Below are positions 6,750-24,195 of a DNA stretch of 28,291 bases, piece after piece. The stretch covers positions 1 to 28,291 of IMG/VR virus record IMGVR_UViG_3300021425_000133; one strand, 5' to 3'. How positions within the stretch are numbered: position 1 is the first letter of the stretch; each line of letters begins with the position of its first letter. The position numbers and the translations under genes are program-made. The stretch is from a virus. A model generated the notes under the pieces. It saw only the letters and a list, made by a program, of their open reading frames with translations. It was not told the origin of the DNA and searched no databases.

Positions 6750-8006
6750 TTATCTACATGCTCCTTCGTTTATGATTGCGTAGTTCGTAGAACCTCCGAC
6801 TCTTTGTGGTTGACCACAAGTACAGAAACAGACTGAACTTTCTGTTCCTACACTATAACTTCTTGATAGACCTGTCTCACATTCCACATAAGTGATGTTG
6901 AGTGATTGTGTCTTACTATAGTTGTAGATACAATATCTTGCACATCCAACAACACAATCATATGGTGGGGTATTACTTGGTGTCGGAGTGATACTCGGTG
7001 TGGGAGTAACTGACGCAGGTACTGGTACCGTTGGGTCAGGTAAACTTGTCGGACTCGGTGTGGGGGTGGGTTGAACACTTGTACTTGGTGTCGGTGTCGG
7101 AGGTACTGCAGTATTATTTGACTTATGTAAACTCACCCTCCAATATTTTGCTGTTGGGGGAACACCGATACCCATATCCACAAGGTTAGGTTGACCGACT
7201 CCTACATATGAAATGTATTTCTTATAGAAGTCAGTATATACAACTTGTGCATCAGTATTACCTGAACAGTCATATCTCCATCCCCCATTTACGATGAGGT
7301 TATGTGTGATACCTGTTGTCAATAAGTTATTACCTTCGTCGAAGAACTCAAACACAGCAGCATAGATTGGGTCAGATGTGGAATAGTCCTCCACATTGTT
7401 GAAGTTAAGTGCTGATAAGGTCTGATAGTCACCTTCTCTTACATATTGTATTCTCGGTGCATTGGTTAAGAACCTATGGTCATCAGCATTATAATCATAT
7501 TGACCTGGTAGGTCTGTGGTGTTTAGATAGAATGGGGAAAGGTTATAGTTCTTTCCATCGTTCCATTCTTTGATTCCGTTAAACACATATCTATATTCGG
7601 TTGGTTGGTATTCGGGGTCTCCTTGTGTCCCCAATCCATTATATAGTATTGGTTCTTCTGTAGGAGCGTTTGCATATTCTTCACCGATATATACTTCATA
7701 TTGTAACCAATCTTCATCTAACCATCCCCAATTTGCTTTTGATATAGGTTCGTTTTGATTTGTTGACCCTTGATTGACGGGTGATGATTTAACATAATTT
7801 TGTAATACCCTTGCAATATCTACTTGTCCCCAACTCTGATTCTGTGGGGTCACCTTTAATCTTGCAATCTTTACATCATTGATAAAAACATCAAATACAT
7901 ATCTGAACTTATACTTAGTAGATTGGTTTGACGATTGAACTTGGAATACAATATTACCATATGCTGGTGAATACTTATTCGGTATATTTAATGAACTAAT
8001 ACTCAT
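6750..8006 (-). CDS. Tail-associated protein with long PTP linker and Cys-rich C-terminal module
   Basis: This 418-aa protein divides into three parts. Residues 1-300 are a beta-rich body starting 'NIPNKYSPAYGNIVFQVQ', similar in style to tail-tip proteins of Bacteroidota phages. Residues 301-348 are a low-complexity linker of Pro, Thr and Ser (repeats such as PTPSITPTPS). Residues 350-418 are a small module with eight cysteines, ending in CFCTCG...GACR. The linker suggests an extended, exposed stalk carrying a small disulphide- or metal-stabilised domain, possibly for surface binding; that is inference. Its start overlaps the stop of the tail-completion-type gene upstream as ATGA. Linkers of the same composition occur in four other genes here. 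Confidence 0.65.
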   Translation of the reverse strand: MSISSLNIPNKYSPAYGNIVFQVQSSNQSTKYKFRYVFDVFINDVKIARLKVTPQNQSWGQVDIARVLQNYVKSSPVNQGSTNQNEPISKANWGWLDEDWLQYEVYIGEEYANAPTEEPILYNGLGTQGDPEYQPTEYRYVFNGIKEWNDGKNYNLSPFYLNTTDLPGQYDYNADDHRFLTNAPRIQYVREGDYQTLSALNFNNVEDYSTSDPIYAAVFEFFDEGNNLLTTGITHNLIVNGGWRYDCSGNTDAQVVYTDFYKKYISYVGVGQPNLVDMGIGVPPTAKYWRVSLHKSNNTAVPPTPTPSTSVQPTPTPSPTSLPDPTVPVPASVTPTPSITPTPSNTPPYDCVVGCARYCIYNYSKTQSLNITYVECETGLSRSYSVGTESSVCFCTCGQPQRVGGSTNYAIINEGACR

Positions 8007-8551: not shown

Positions 8552-8973
8552 TATAAACAATATGTTCCTTCAACCCTTAAGGTAATCTGTGCTTCGACAC
8601 CTGCAACATAGATTGAAAATCTGTCCAAGAATGGACTGAATGTAACGGGTGTGACCAAGAAGAAGTCAAAGTCTTTTCGTTGGTTTATATAGTACTCTAT
8701 GAAGTCCTGAAGTATAAGGTGACATGTCTCGACAATGTCAATGTTGTTATCTTGAATGTCATCCAACATAGATGCGAATATAACATTGAAGTTGAAGTCT
8801 GTGTATGTGTCATTTATCGTTGAAGGTAAGGGGACAATGTGCATTAGAGGAAAGTCCAACAATTCCTCATCTTGACCCACATCAGACATTTGACCAAATG
8901 TAAATGTTTTGATTACGGGGTGTTGTTCAGAGAAACCTGAAAAACTATCTATGATGGATTTGAAATTATTCAT
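8551..8973 (-). CDS. Putative tail terminator-type protein, 140 aa
   Basis: This small mixed alpha/beta protein begins MNNFKSIIDSF and contains 'DFPLMHIVPLP' and 'YINQRKDFDFFLVTPVTFSPF...SIYVAGVEAQITLRV'. Size, strand-rich C-terminus and position between the tail-assembly chaperone and the tail-completion gene fit a tail terminator or minor tail protein, but I do not recognise a diagnostic motif. The start codon overlaps the stop of the -1 frame extension of the chaperone gene as TAATG at 8973. This is independent support that the extension is genuinely translated. Its own stop overlaps the next gene in the same manner. Confidence 0.5.
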   Translation of the reverse strand: MNNFKSIIDSFSGFSEQHPVIKTFTFGQMSDVGQDEELLDFPLMHIVPLPSTINDTYTDFNFNVIFASMLDDIQDNNIDIVETCHLILQDFIEYYINQRKDFDFFLVTPVTFSPFLDRFSIYVAGVEAQITLRVEGTYCL

Positions 8974-9266
8974 TATCTACGGGTTTTTTTGCGAGCCTTT
9001 TCCATTTCCTCTTTTTCTCGCTTCCATTTATTAATCTTATACAATAAATAGGTGAGGGCTTCCTGAAGAGAAAGGTTTAATACATCATCTATCTTTAGGG
9101 GGTCTTCTTTAGATAGAATCATATAGGTGTTGTAGTAAAAGTCAGTTAGGTCTTTTAGTTTTTCTTCGTGTGACCTTTCGTCTGGCGGAGCAACTCCCTC
9201 ATCTTCTTCTTCTTGACTTCCATAGAGTCCTTCTGCTTGTTTGTAAGTGTCTTCGCGTAATTTATG
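8973..9266 (-). CDS. Frameshift extension of the tail-assembly chaperone (-1 frame, 97 codons)
   Basis: Downstream of the T10 run the -1 frame stays open for 97 codons and ends in TAA at 8975-8973. Upstream in this frame a stop lies at 9320-9318 with no ATG between it and the slip site, so the frame can be entered naturally only by frameshifting (an internal ATG at 9122 would give only 49 aa). The encoded segment starts HKLREDTYKQAEG, has an acidic linker (EEEDEG) and then a helical, charged C-terminus (LQEALTYLLYKINKWKREKEE). A -1 slip gives a fusion of 169 + 97 = 266 aa. This matches the G/GT arrangement of tail-assembly chaperones in siphoviruses. The stop overlaps the next start as TAATG. 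Confidence 0.85.
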   Translation of the reverse strand, partial: HKLREDTYKQAEGLYGSQEEEDEGVAPPDERSHEEKLKDLTDFYYNTYMILSKEDPLKIDDVLNLSLQEALTYLLYKINKWKREKEEMEKARKKTRR

Positions 9267-9772
9267 AAAAAAAAAACAGATGAATATATCACTGACATTG
9301 GGAAGTCCCCCATATCTTTACTTCTTTCTAAACACTCTTCATAGTCGTATTTGACGATGGTTCTATCTAAGGTTTCTACAGAGAATGTGTTACAAGGTCT
9401 ATACAGAATTGCACATATATGTTTTAGGTTCTTCTGTTCTTGTGAGAATAGAACCTCAAGGTCTGTCCATTCACCCCATGACATTTGTGATGGTTGTGTA
9501 AGTCCCAACATCTCACCTTTGTATTCGACAAGTTGTCTAAGGGGTTTCTGTTGTGTGGTATTGCTAAACCATGACTCCAATACCTTTGCAACAAAACCTA
9601 TTTGAGGTATCGTGGCTTGTTTTATTTCCTGTAGGGGTATGTTTGTCATCAACGATATAAACTCAGGGTCAGTAAGGTTCTGTTCTGACATATTGATTTC
9701 TTTAACCTTGTTCCATTGGTTTAGAGTTAGTTCACCCAACTCATATTCGTTTTCATCTAATACAATTTTCAT
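9155..9772 (-). CDS. Tail assembly chaperone, zero-frame product
   Basis: This 205-aa protein begins MKIVLDENEYELGELTLNQWNK, then has helices with 'LMTNIPLQEIKQATIPQIGFVAKVL' (residues ~60-90) and 'SWGEWTDLEVLFSQEQKNLKHICAILYRP'. That is the pattern I associate with tail-assembly chaperones of Bacteroidota phages. Residues 166-169 (VFFF) are encoded by GTTTTTTTTTTC, a strong slippery run. Without slippage 36 more residues follow, rich in lysine. With a -1 slip the protein acquires the 97-residue extension at 8973-9266. The two forms would coat and recruit the tape measure for tail-tube assembly. The start overlaps the methyltransferase stop as ATGA. In other phages the chaperone usually sits directly before the tape measure; here five genes intervene. 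Confidence 0.75.
   Translation of the reverse strand: MKIVLDENEYELGELTLNQWNKVKEINMSEQNLTDPEFISLMTNIPLQEIKQATIPQIGFVAKVLESWFSNTTQQKPLRQLVEYKGEMLGLTQPSQMSWGEWTDLEVLFSQEQKNLKHICAILYRPCNTFSVETLDRTIVKYDYEECLERSKDMGDFPMSVIYSSVFFFINYAKTLTNKQKDSMEVKKKKMRELLRQTKGHTKKN
9267..9277 (-). other. Probable -1 programmed ribosomal frameshift site (T10 slippery run)
   Basis: On the minus strand the mRNA reads G followed by ten U and then C (A10 at 9267-9276 on the plus strand). It includes the heptamer U UUU UUU in the zero frame. Slipping back one base converts VFFF-INYAK to VFFF-HKLRE and opens 97 further codons. No clear downstream stem-loop was found by eye. Confidence 0.8.
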
Positions 9773-10581
9773 ATTAATTTCATTTGTATATTGTTCATAA
9801 GTTTTAAACTTGCTTCATAGTAATCTTTGTTTAGTTCACTACCCAAATATTCTCTGTTTAGTTGTTTTGCAATTTTGGTTGTTGTCCCCGAACCATTGAA
9901 CGGGTCATATACCAAATCACCTTCATTAGTCCAACTCTTGATGTGTCTTATTGCAATTTCCTCTGGCATGATTGCTGGATGACTCTCTATTCTTCTTTGG
10001 TCTGTCTTTTTGAACTGATTAGATATATACCATACATTATCATCTATACCATACTCTTTTACTTGTATAGTTCTGTTTACCCTTTCAAACTCACCATTAT
10101 GGTTTCTTTCTCTTCTACTAAATCTTTTTGCTCCCCCTGTCTTATTCTTTTTGAGTATGGGGTTGAATGTATTTGGTTTACCTTTACTGAATATAAACAT
10201 ATTCTCCCATACATTCCTGTATCGGTATATTGACGGAAATGGTGTTCCTGTCTTATACCAAATAAGATGGTCGTGTAAAAATAGTCCACACTCTTCCATA
10301 AAGTATAATGCTTGTCTCATACTATTACCAGTCCTTGAACCTTTGATTGTTTGGTCTTGAACATTCCACATTATTACTCCCCCTTCTTTTAGTGTCCTTG
10401 TTAGTTCTTTTGCTATTTCTTCAAACTCAAATGAATAACCTGTGTCTTTTAACCTTTGATGATAATTCTTACCTCCACCATACTTTCTCATATTATCATA
10501 AGGGGGTGAAGTCAATACAAGGTCTATTGTATTGTCCTCCAACCTTCTCATCGTATCCAAACAATTTTCATTATAAATCAT
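9769..10581 (-). CDS. Site-specific DNA methyltransferase, beta-class amino-MTase
   Basis: This 270-aa enzyme should transfer a methyl group from S-adenosylmethionine to an exocyclic amino group of DNA. The catalytic motif IV TSPPY is at residues 24-28. The SAM-binding motif I DPFNGSGTT comes late, at residues 226-234, followed by YLGSEL at 245-250. This motif order (IV before I) defines the beta class; SPPY is most common in N4-cytosine enzymes but also occurs in N6-adenine ones, so the base is undecided. No restriction endonuclease lies next to it. It overlaps TerL upstream and the tail chaperone downstream, both as ATGA, so it is expressed with the late genes and may protect or mark progeny DNA at packaging (inference). 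Confidence 0.9.
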   Translation of the reverse strand: MIYNENCLDTMRRLEDNTIDLVLTSPPYDNMRKYGGGKNYHQRLKDTGYSFEFEEIAKELTRTLKEGGVIMWNVQDQTIKGSRTGNSMRQALYFMEECGLFLHDHLIWYKTGTPFPSIYRYRNVWENMFIFSKGKPNTFNPILKKNKTGGAKRFSRRERNHNGEFERVNRTIQVKEYGIDDNVWYISNQFKKTDQRRIESHPAIMPEEIAIRHIKSWTNEGDLVYDPFNGSGTTTKIAKQLNREYLGSELNKDYYEASLKLMNNIQMKLI

Positions 10582-20184: not shown

Positions 20185-21702
20185 TTATATACATGGTAAG
20201 TATTCCACATCACCAAATGTCGTAGAACCTGACACAGGGAATGATAAACTACAATATGTCGTTGCTGAACCAGTAAAGTTATATCCAAAGTCTCTTGAAC
20301 TATCGAATAATCTTGTATTACAAGAGAATGGATTATTGGGGTCAGATGGTATTTGTGAAGTTAATGAACCACTATATAATCTAACTACATTACCACCATT
20401 AAATGATTCAACATTAACGAATTTATCATCATCATTGATGTTCTTGTATAGGTTACCATAAGGTGGTATAAAAGTAGCGGGGTTTATACATACCCAACCA
20501 GTGTAGAATTGACCGGCAGATGAACCTCTAAATTGGTCATAGAACCCTGTATTTGCTAATACATATGTTCCATCCATACCTAAGTTTGTATTAGTCAGTT
20601 TAAATCCATTCTGATATACAGAACTTGGTGTTGGTGTGGGAGTTAAACCAGGTGTTGCACTTGGAGGTATAGAACCACAGTAATAGTCAACACCACTTCT
20701 ACTTGGGTAATGATACCCATTTGTTGTTGTATTGTCTGTATATGGGGTAGTTCTTTGTGAATTTAATGATGGGAATGTTTCACCATCTGTCCAACCAGTA
20801 CTTGTTTTATTAGGTATATTGATTGTAGCCCATTCCCATGTTTTTGGTTCAAATCTATCAGTAGTCATCCAACATAATGCAACAGTATCTGCACTTAGAT
20901 TTTTAACATAGAATGAATAGTTGTTACCATCGGGGTGTGTACCTTCAACAAATTGATACTCTGATATACTTATTCTTTCAATATAACCTGTACCACTCAA
21001 TGAGAAACATCCATATGAATATGAAGTTGGTGTAGTGAAGAATTGGTCAACCTCAACATAAGAGTCATTTGGTAAAGGTACTTCACTCGGAGTAATACTC
21101 GGTGTGGGAGTCAGTGTCGCACTTGGTGTCGGTGTCGGACAAACTCCACCATATGTAATATAACCCTGAAGGTCTGATTGGTCAGGGTAAATAATACCAT
21201 CACAAGTGAAAGTTGTTGGTGTGGGGTATTCAACAAGTTGATATTTTACTTCAAAAAGAAATGGTGTACATGCAAAGTTACCTGATAGTAGTTCAAAGTG
21301 TAAGAAATCACCATTAGTATCAAACATCCAAACACCAGTTGTTGATGCCGCTGTTGTTCCTGTATAAATTGCATAATTTGAACTACAATCTATTTCACCT
21401 TCATAAGTAGTTCCTGAAATGTTAGTTAAAGTTACCGCACCTGATTTACCTGGTATTCTATTGTATATACCATTAATATAACTCAATCCATCTGAAGCAT
21501 AGAAACAGAATGATTGATATAAAGTACAAGGTGGTAAACTTGCACTTGGAGTCGGAGTTATAGATGGTGTCGTAGTTGGAGTAATCGATGGTGTCACAGA
21601 TGGTGTAATCTTGAAAGGTTGTGGCACAAACTTGTCATAGAAGTTAAATGTTTTTTTACCCCTATGTTTCGATTGTAAGTTATAAAACTCTTCTTGACTC
21701 AA
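20185..21702 (-). CDS. Modular appendage protein with three PTP linkers
   Basis: This 505-aa protein is a string of modules separated by Pro-Thr-Ser linkers. Residues 1-32 form a short basic head region. Linkers lie at 33-58, 188-211 and 346-361 (for example ITPTPSASLPP, TPTPSATLTPTP). Three globular, Cys-containing, aromatic and Gly-rich domains fill the gaps. The stretched composition fits an exposed fibre with several binding domains. The start is TTG at 21702, which overlaps the upstream stop as TTGA; no ATG occurs nearby in frame. The linkers resemble those in the 418-, 855-, 343- and 346-aa proteins. Function in adhesion is inferred. Confidence 0.6.
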   Translation of the reverse strand: MSQEEFYNLQSKHRGKKTFNFYDKFVPQPFKITPSVTPSITPTTTPSITPTPSASLPPCTLYQSFCFYASDGLSYINGIYNRIPGKSGAVTLTNISGTTYEGEIDCSSNYAIYTGTTAASTTGVWMFDTNGDFLHFELLSGNFACTPFLFEVKYQLVEYPTPTTFTCDGIIYPDQSDLQGYITYGGVCPTPTPSATLTPTPSITPSEVPLPNDSYVEVDQFFTTPTSYSYGCFSLSGTGYIERISISEYQFVEGTHPDGNNYSFYVKNLSADTVALCWMTTDRFEPKTWEWATINIPNKTSTGWTDGETFPSLNSQRTTPYTDNTTTNGYHYPSRSGVDYYCGSIPPSATPGLTPTPTPSSVYQNGFKLTNTNLGMDGTYVLANTGFYDQFRGSSAGQFYTGWVCINPATFIPPYGNLYKNINDDDKFVNVESFNGGNVVRLYSGSLTSQIPSDPNNPFSCNTRLFDSSRDFGYNFTGSATTYCSLSFPVSGSTTFGDVEYLPCI

Positions 21703-22121: not shown

Positions 22122-23153
22122 TTATGTGTATGTATTTCTTCCCAATGCTGTTTGGAAGTCGTTTATTATTCCTGCAAATGTTGCTACCTCTGCGTCTGTG
22201 TAGTACCTCGTATAGAACAAGAAACTATAAGTTCTAGTATTAGTAGCGCCACCACCTCCACCACCTTTACCTAACCAACTATCACCTGTTGTTGTGCATT
22301 GGTCGGTTTGTACTGTATTAATAAGTGTGATATTACCATTTCTAATTAATTTACCTGTACCACTCGTTGTTCCCGTTTGAGTACTAACAAATAGTCCTGT
22401 TCTATTAGTATTAGAACCTGTCTTAAATCCACTTGCTCTTCTAACATATGCTGTTGTACCATTATATGACCCGATAACAACATTATTATCAACAAAACTC
22501 ATTTGCATATCATATTTTGCTTGAGCACTTGGGTCGTTTTGTATTTCCATACCGTATGATGAATCACCACAAGCACCAACAGTTCCTCTGTGAACGCCTA
22601 CGAGTTCACCATAACCATTAGTTCCGTTACCTGTTGCACCACTAACTGTGTGTGTGACACCACCCTGCCAAGTAATATCGTTACCACTTAATGTTGCTTC
22701 AATTGCGTGTGATGCAGCGGTACCTCCCATCATTGGATAGAAGATAATATCTGAGTAGAAACCTGCCGCTTTTAAGTCAACAAACAATGTGTTGGTTGCT
22801 GCACTCATAGCGGCATCAACTGTACCACCTGAAGCAACAACTTCTGCTAAGTAAGCGGCAGCATCAGCGTCAAATGATGGTACTGATGCTGATGGTGTAG
22901 GTGTTGGAGTCGGAGTAATAGTTGCAGTCGGAGTTGGCGTAGGACTCGGTGCAGTACCAACAGTTAAGAAACAAGTCTTAGGGACAGAAGGAATGTCTAT
23001 TGTATAAACACCTTCATAATTTGTTGATAAGTAATCATAAGGTATTGTCTGTGTCCCCAAATTTATTGTACCACCTGTGTATGGTGCAAAAGATATATCT
23101 ACACTCTCACCGTTAAAATTACTACTCTCTATTGTTATTCCTATTTGTGACAT
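22122..23153 (-). CDS. Fibre-like protein with PTP linker, tandem copy 2
   Basis: This 343-aa protein has a unique N-terminal domain (residues 1-65), a PTP linker (about 67-95), then a C-terminal domain starting DADAAAYLAEVVASGGTVDAA. The latter holds the phrases 'NTLFVDLKAAGFYSDI', 'YPMMGGTAASHAIEA' and a Gly/Asn-rich 'GATGNGTNGYGE', and ends 'FQTALGRN'. These are typical of a widespread appendage domain in Bacteroidota and their phages. It is homologous along this whole domain to the next gene upstream (23155-24195), one base apart, so the pair is a tandem duplication. The N-terminal head domains differ. It is likely a surface-exposed fibre or head-decoration protein. Confidence 0.7.
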   Translation of the reverse strand: MSQIGITIESSNFNGESVDISFAPYTGGTINLGTQTIPYDYLSTNYEGVYTIDIPSVPKTCFLTVGTAPSPTPTPTATITPTPTPTPSASVPSFDADAAAYLAEVVASGGTVDAAMSAATNTLFVDLKAAGFYSDIIFYPMMGGTAASHAIEATLSGNDITWQGGVTHTVSGATGNGTNGYGELVGVHRGTVGACGDSSYGMEIQNDPSAQAKYDMQMSFVDNNVVIGSYNGTTAYVRRASGFKTGSNTNRTGLFVSTQTGTTSGTGKLIRNGNITLINTVQTDQCTTTGDSWLGKGGGGGGATNTRTYSFLFYTRYYTDAEVATFAGIINDFQTALGRNTYT

Positions 23154-23154
23154 A

Positions 23155-24195
23155 TTAATATGTATTTCTACTTAATGCAGTTTGGAAGTCGTTTATTATT
23201 CCTTGTAATGTGATTGTCTCACTATAATCTATATCTGAACCGAAATAACAGAAGCCTAAAGTATCATCTCTATATGTGCCTGCTGTTGGTGAACCACTTG
23301 CAGTAAATACAAATAAACTCATTAAGTTTGTTGCCGCAGCAGTACTATACCCTGAAGCGGTTGCGTGTTGTGTTTCATTAACATATACAGCAAACTCTGT
23401 TGTTCCTGTTCTTACTACGGTATGGTTTCCATCTATATTTGTTGGTTGTGAAATACCAGGTGATGGTGAATACATAAAGTTATAACGATTAACAGTAGAA
23501 GTTGCCCTATATGGAGCAATTGTTGTTCTATCCGCATCAAAGTTTCCGTGTAATCCATTATTTGATGCTGAGTTTGCGTCTGTTATATATAATCCCCAAG
23601 AACCTAATGTTCTTGTTGTTAAATCATCAATAGCAAAGGTTAAATCACCCCAACCATTTGAACCATTACCTGTTGAACCAGATACCCCATGCGTCATACC
23701 ACCATTCCAACTAATATCATAAGTTTTATTACGCAATGCATTTATTGCATGTGATGCTGCTGTTCCTCCAACAAATGGATAGAATAAATCTAATTTACTA
23801 TAAAGTCCTGCTGACTTAAGGTCTTTGAATAATGTATCAGTCGCACCACTAATTGTTGCGTTTGTTGTACCACCTGAAGCAATTACATCAGATAAATAAG
23901 CCGCAGCATCACTATCAAACGCTATTGGTGAAGGACTTGGTGTCGGTGTCACAGTAACCGATGGGGTGATAGATGGTGTGGGAGTGACACTTGTTGTAGG
24001 AGTGATTGTTGGAGTCACAGTGCTTGTGGGTGTCGGACTTTGTGGGAATATTGGTGAGAATGTAAAGTCACATGCAAATGGGTCAGTAACTCTTCTACCA
24101 CCTTTGCGTGGATAATACACCAATAGACGATTGTAATCATTGACATTGGTATATTCGAATACTGTTGGTTTAAAATCTTTATCTATATAAGGCAT
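23155..24195 (-). CDS. Fibre-like protein with PTP linker, tandem copy 1
   Basis: This 346-aa protein starts MPYIDKDFKPTVFEYTNVND (residues 1-50: a distinct head domain). A long Thr/Pro/Ser linker follows (about 52-92). The C-terminal domain begins DSDAAAYLSDVIASGGTTNAT, continues with TLFKDLKSAGLYSKL, FYPFVGGTAASHAINA and 'SGSTGNGSNGWGD', and ends 'DFQTALSRN'. It is the paralogue of 22122-23153. Binding specificity is unknown; such domains may recognise glycans (inference). The gene starts about 27 bp beyond the hairpin at 24222, which lies between it and the tail-tube gene. Confidence 0.7.
   Translation of the reverse strand: MPYIDKDFKPTVFEYTNVNDYNRLLVYYPRKGGRRVTDPFACDFTFSPIFPQSPTPTSTVTPTITPTTSVTPTPSITPSVTVTPTPSPSPIAFDSDAAAYLSDVIASGGTTNATISGATDTLFKDLKSAGLYSKLDLFYPFVGGTAASHAINALRNKTYDISWNGGMTHGVSGSTGNGSNGWGDLTFAIDDLTTRTLGSWGLYITDANSASNNGLHGNFDADRTTIAPYRATSTVNRYNFMYSPSPGISQPTNIDGNHTVVRTGTTEFAVYVNETQHATASGYSTAAATNLMSLFVFTASGSPTAGTYRDDTLGFCYFGSDIDYSETITLQGIINDFQTALSRNTY

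Follow-up and report, generated by a model that had tools for sequence, protein, structure and literature searches.

In the phage DNA analysed here, a gene proposed to act in tail assembly contains an uninterrupted run of ten T, and its relatives keep at the same site a run never shorter than nine T, followed by a conserved and constrained extension in the -1 frame. To judge from the sequence, it is likely that the short product of this gene is obtained by standard decoding and the long product by programmed transcriptional slippage. We also lean, with somewhat less confidence, towards the broader view that, throughout a whole widespread lineage of phages of Bacteroidota, the tail chaperone pair arises via slippage of RNA polymerase instead of ribosomal frameshifting, plausibly in relation to the way the host handles Shine–Dalgarno (SD) sequences.

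The cistron, its neighbours and its probable function

The T10 run GTTTTTTTTTTC is the sole A/T run of nine or more within the window, by which we mean the whole stretch of 28,291 bases (Table 1). From codon 166 onward the 205-aa gene reads GTT TTT TTT TTC, while the -1 frame, open from position 9317, ends at a TAA (8975-8973) that shares bases with the start of the next gene (TAATG). The initial annotation had described a 205-aa gene with this run, a 266-aa fusion arising by a -1 shift, a -1 frame devoid of ATG before the slip site and an extension TAA overlapping the ATG at 8973, and our coordinates agree with it in each of these respects. Five genes separate the fusion cistron from the likely tape measure ORF; this gap, at first regarded as unusual, is normal for the family. 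Scanning the window for Rfam families and tRNAs returned nothing.

Table 1. Features of the fusion cistron and of its surroundings in the window
Feature	Position	Strand	Remarks
Frame-0 gene, 205 aa	9772-9155	minus	Short product, proposed “G-like” chaperone; ORF, family alignments, AlphaFold2 model
Proposed slippage run T10, GTTTTTTTTTTC	9276-9267	minus	T9-T11 in relatives reaching the site
-1 frame ORF: extension (proposed “T-like” domain), 97 codons past FFF	9317-8973	minus	
Complete fusion cistron; a -1 shift within the run would give the long product of 266 aa	9772-8973	minus	Inferred mechanism
Next gene, 140 aa, possible tail terminator	8973-8551	minus	Start overlaps the fusion stop
185-aa gene	8560-8003	minus	Same position in relatives: tail-completion/Neck1 (HK97 gp10-like); Pfam just under cut-off
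Coiled-coil ORF, 1026 aa, likely tape measure	3419-339	minus	Assigned by its position and composition; no strong match to a family
Terminase large subunit	11726-10578	minus	Upstream of the methylase gene
DNA methylase gene	10581-9769	minus	Between the terminase and the 205-aa gene

Some other features of the window may be mentioned here. Several tail-region proteins encoded on the minus strand (6750-8006, 20185-21702, 22122-23153 and 23155-24195) have common Pro-Thr-Pro-Ser linkers, and the last two resemble tandem duplicates. Within the methylase gene, positions 10162-10441 give a 68% DNA match to the unannotated 144-kb record “Staphylococcus phage PG-2021_1”.

The two products probably work like a G/GT pair, and we place them in this type because of their organisation and position. 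The gene order in relatives is terminase, chaperone candidate, a gene of about 150 aa, a tail-completion/Neck1-like gene (phrog_5 in loci L174 and L034) and then long tail genes. The classic position of a tail chaperone is immediately upstream of the tape measure. Locus L023 has this arrangement, its tape measure gene (phrog_3336, E 1e-13) directly following the candidate; in the majority of relatives, as in the window, the tail-completion gene and others lie in between. By analogy with lambda gpG/gpGT, abundant short copies would coat the tape measure and scarce long copies would recruit the tail-tube subunits.

Comparison with characterised proteins gave little beyond this. Searches of Pfam and NCBIfam across the family yielded just scattered weak matches, among them Pfam TAC_7 in one of 42 members (E 0.009), and the function-unknown group phrog_32199 was matched by 23 of the 42. 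Alignment by hhalign with single sequences of lambda G, lambda T and Mu gp41 gave probabilities below 1% throughout, in a comparison of low power. AlphaFold2 modelled the 205-aa protein with a pLDDT of 90, and the extension folded apart from it gave a weak model (pLDDT 76). With the 205-aa model, Foldseek found no match in the PDB and retrieved only uncharacterised phage proteins, including that of P12024S gene 38. The initial proposal of a frameshifted tail chaperone is supported by the nested short and long products, the organisation and the gene order of L023; homology with characterised chaperones was not detected in these comparisons.

The host probably belongs to the Bacteroidota, since the portal sequence was matched only by the Nonlabens phages P12024S/L, by Bacteroides phages and by a single faecal contig. 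For the terminase there are matches in many phages, the best of them in Phocaeicola phages.

Conservation of the T run and of the -1 frame

Peptide patterns, almost all of them located outside the T run, served to retrieve relatives, and 331 loci gave a tblastn match at identities down to about 20-25%, some of them being the same contig fetched again. All 327 true relatives reaching the site have nine or more T in the run (264 T9, 57 T10 and 6 T11), none being shorter. The four other loci are three contigs that stop short of the site and one weak match, Flavobacterium phage 6H. The rule is unchanged after protein clustering into 104 clusters below 70%, 53 below 50% and 27 below 40% identity. 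The homopolymer base was T at all sites seen and never A. The 83 loci gathered first (662 kb) have T9, T10 or T11 at all sites, with just six further runs of nine or more T on the same strand. The relatives with 47-54% G+C (L200-L248) also have T9, a run that is still less likely at their base composition.

In the two relatives retrieved first, with 90% and 68% identity, GTTTTTTTTTTC is unaltered and the extension is retained. Over the whole collection, the -1 frame continues for 76-105 codons past the run in 312 of 312 complete loci. The alignment of homologues suggested in the initial annotation therefore shows both the T run and the -1 extension in every relative reaching the site, and stops breaking the extension, envisaged there as evidence against the reading, do not occur in the complete loci. 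Where both frames are coding, conservation is higher for the -1 protein than for the frame-0 tail in 862 of the 972 differing pairs and lower in 110. Past the frame-0 stop, changes at codon positions 1, 2 and 3 number 9791, 6867 and 20985, respectively, and owing to this third-position excess the extension region is recognised as a coding frame.

The weak relative in Flavobacterium phage 6H (L090, KC959568, minus strand, 10927-10352; E 6e-5) has only GTTTTTTC near its end; its -1 frame shuts immediately while another frame goes on, and it may rely on another type of shift or be arranged differently. In Phocaeicola phage BD26P1 and Bacteroides phage BF1-2, no such gene follows the terminase. 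When 85,000 species genomes were scanned with one pattern, the single match was L084 (PAPR01000049.1), in which a T9 run is present; this contig is binned as Pseudooceanicola (an alphaproteobacterial MAG) and is probably a stray phage contig.

Among annotated phages, a homologue search with five family members as queries returned only the Nonlabens gene, first located through portal relatives, which matched itself and its twin. In P12024S (L085, JQ823122, 23136-23830) the homologue directly follows the terminase; its gene 38 has T9 at 23578-23586, and the -1 frame of this gene carries an extension of 80 codons past the run. Genes 38 and 39 are annotated in JQ823122 as separate hypothetical proteins, as are the two halves in P12024L (L091, JQ823123, genes 40 and 41). 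Each of these pairs may be read as one slippage cistron.

Proposed transcriptional slippage and its alternatives

We propose slippage of RNA polymerase on these stretches of nine or more T, which would yield mRNAs with differing U counts. Transcripts with one U more (or two fewer) would then bring an ordinary ribosome into the -1 frame and to the 266-aa fusion, a single inserted U leading to exactly this frame. Several properties of polymerases described earlier agree with this scheme. Nine A/T is a slippage-prone length in many bacteria, selection against A/T runs being evident from nine, and runs of 9A/9T are used by IS genes (PMC1088944). Slippage of bacterial (E. coli) RNA polymerase needs at least seven T (PMC6260861); insertions are mostly of a single base, and all homopolymer insertions fall into A/T runs, with an exponential rise with run length (PMC5574713).

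The main alternative, favoured in the initial annotation and in our estimate unlikely though far from negligible, is ribosomal -1 programmed frameshifting of the lambda G/GT kind, in which a pair of tRNAs slips on U_UUU_UUU, the fusion arising at translation. Textbooks give this route for the tail chaperones of phages (PMC5009743), and T_TTT_TTT lies inside every site, so that ribosomes could slip there. The heptamer does not discriminate, however, since every run of nine or more T contains it. The run length required depends on the codon phase: a ribosomal T_TTT_TTT needs seven T when the first of them falls on the third codon base, eight when it falls on the second and nine when it falls on the first. 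The runs start at the first, second and third base in 20, 82 and 225 loci, respectively, and the minimum is nine T in each phase; neither T6-T8 nor any other X_XXY_YYZ heptamer occurs among relatives down to 20% identity.

At the phase-2 (third-base) sites, the last two T lie outside the heptamer and TTT is the only codon seen for the third Phe of the fusion, although TTC at the final position, never used, would leave the fusion unchanged. With TTT making up 71% of the Phe codons in these loci overall, all-TTT would arise by chance with a probability of about 10^-5.5 over 34 clusters less than 50% identical, an approximate value as the relatives are not independent. FFF elsewhere is coded as T9 in none of five cases. 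Phase 1 represents weaker evidence because a conserved Phe or Leu partly sets the extra T, and conservation of FFF or FFL in the fusion protein could account for part of the run length.

Signals that usually attract attention around ribosomal shift sites were also considered. No RNA structure was detected upstream of the run, and downstream of it the mean z over 52 loci, for nested structures only, was 0.04 (60 nt) and 0.13 (85 nt), which shows no excess of structure. SD-like 4-mers are mildly enriched upstream (19/53 versus 15% in the background), and given a Gly codon the figures are 19/38 versus 31%. This enrichment, which is the sole and mild sign of ribosomal stimulation, is partly explained by the conserved Gly codon. 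Moreover, SD sequences are not recognised by the ribosomes of Bacteroidia (PMC9976891), and in Flavobacterium johnsoniae frameshifting at prfB is reported to be poor (PMC12421855), which speaks against a ribosomal shift in such hosts. Three points thus favour transcriptional slippage and disfavour the ribosomal shift: the uniform nine-T minimum over the codon phases, the lack of excess structure 3' of the run, and the translation system of the probable host. Slippage may have taken the place of the ribosomal shift plausibly because the host ribosomes have no usable SD stimulation.

One more feature is suggestive only. The +1 frame, to which loss of one U by the polymerase would also lead, meets a stop within two codons after the run in 65% of clusters compared with 28-34% in the background, as if selection cut a minor slippage product short; conserved codons past the run could produce the same picture.

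The remaining explanations are much less probable. The extension could be a separate protein expressed from an internal start with no fusion at all, as the public annotation of P12024S with its two genes would have it. We consider this very improbable: from the last stop to 30 codons past the run, the -1 frame has no ATG in 86 of 99 non-redundant loci, which makes separate initiation unlikely, and in 64 of the 99 it has no ATG, GTG or TTG. In addition, the conservation of the extension begins at the T run, and the run itself would be left unexplained. Still less credible is replication slippage, i.e., phase variation, in which the run length would vary in the phage DNA and some genomes would encode the fusion directly. 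Long T runs are hypermutable, and T9, T10 and T11 are all present; nevertheless, the frame relation is constant in the DNA of all 312 complete loci, not one of which is fused, which is evidence against phase variation, and T10 becomes T11 by a frame-keeping substitution. Finally, an assembly or sequencing error, put forward at the outset as the main alternative because homopolymers are error-prone, is excluded by the conservation of the run, the arrangement being identical in hundreds of assemblies and in the isolate genomes of P12024S and P12024L.

Relation to known systems

Frameshifting of tail chaperones is taught as a conserved ribosomal event. If transcriptional slippage operates here, selection would conserve the pair of products, not the machine making it, and the choice of machine could follow the translation system of the host; the host polymerase would then set the ratio of the phage proteins. 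It would also add a slippage gene set that is not of mobile elements and extends over dozens of diverged lineages. The site is carried by the isolate phages P12024S and P12024L. For genes now listed as two hypothetical proteins, the combination of a chaperone-like ORF, at least nine T and a -1 ORF may serve as an annotation rule. A search limited to open papers returned no earlier report of a tail chaperone made by slippage. Frameshifted chaperones are known and genes using slippage are known, while none of the open papers covered by the search combines them.

The lambda gpG/gpGT pair and its frameshifted counterparts are the subject of Xu, Hendrix and Duda (2004), as cited in PMC5009743 and PMC3711429. 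The family resembles this pair in having overlapping frames, a short and a -1 extended product and a single tail-region cistron, with the tape measure immediately downstream in L023. It differs in the long pure T run found in any codon phase, as opposed to the fixed heptamer of the lambda type, and in its usual location several genes upstream of the tape measure; similarity of sequence or fold was not detected.

Programmed transcriptional slippage on 9A/9T is represented by Thermus dnaX, Shigella mxiE/spa13 and IS elements (PMC1088944, PMC5009743). These systems share with the phage family a conserved A/T run of about nine and a conserved ORF in another frame, whereas here the gene is the presumed tail-assembly cistron of a dsDNA phage family and the base is T at every site seen. 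Mu gp41/Mu_56 (AF083977) likewise has a short and a long chaperone encoded by one cistron with adjacent tail genes; in contrast, Mu is annotated as having a translational -2 shift, and the hhalign probability is 0.3%. A further counterpart is the pair of genes 38/39 in Nonlabens phage P12024S (JQ823122), which belongs to the same family, with T9 and the terminase upstream, and differs by its two-gene annotation.
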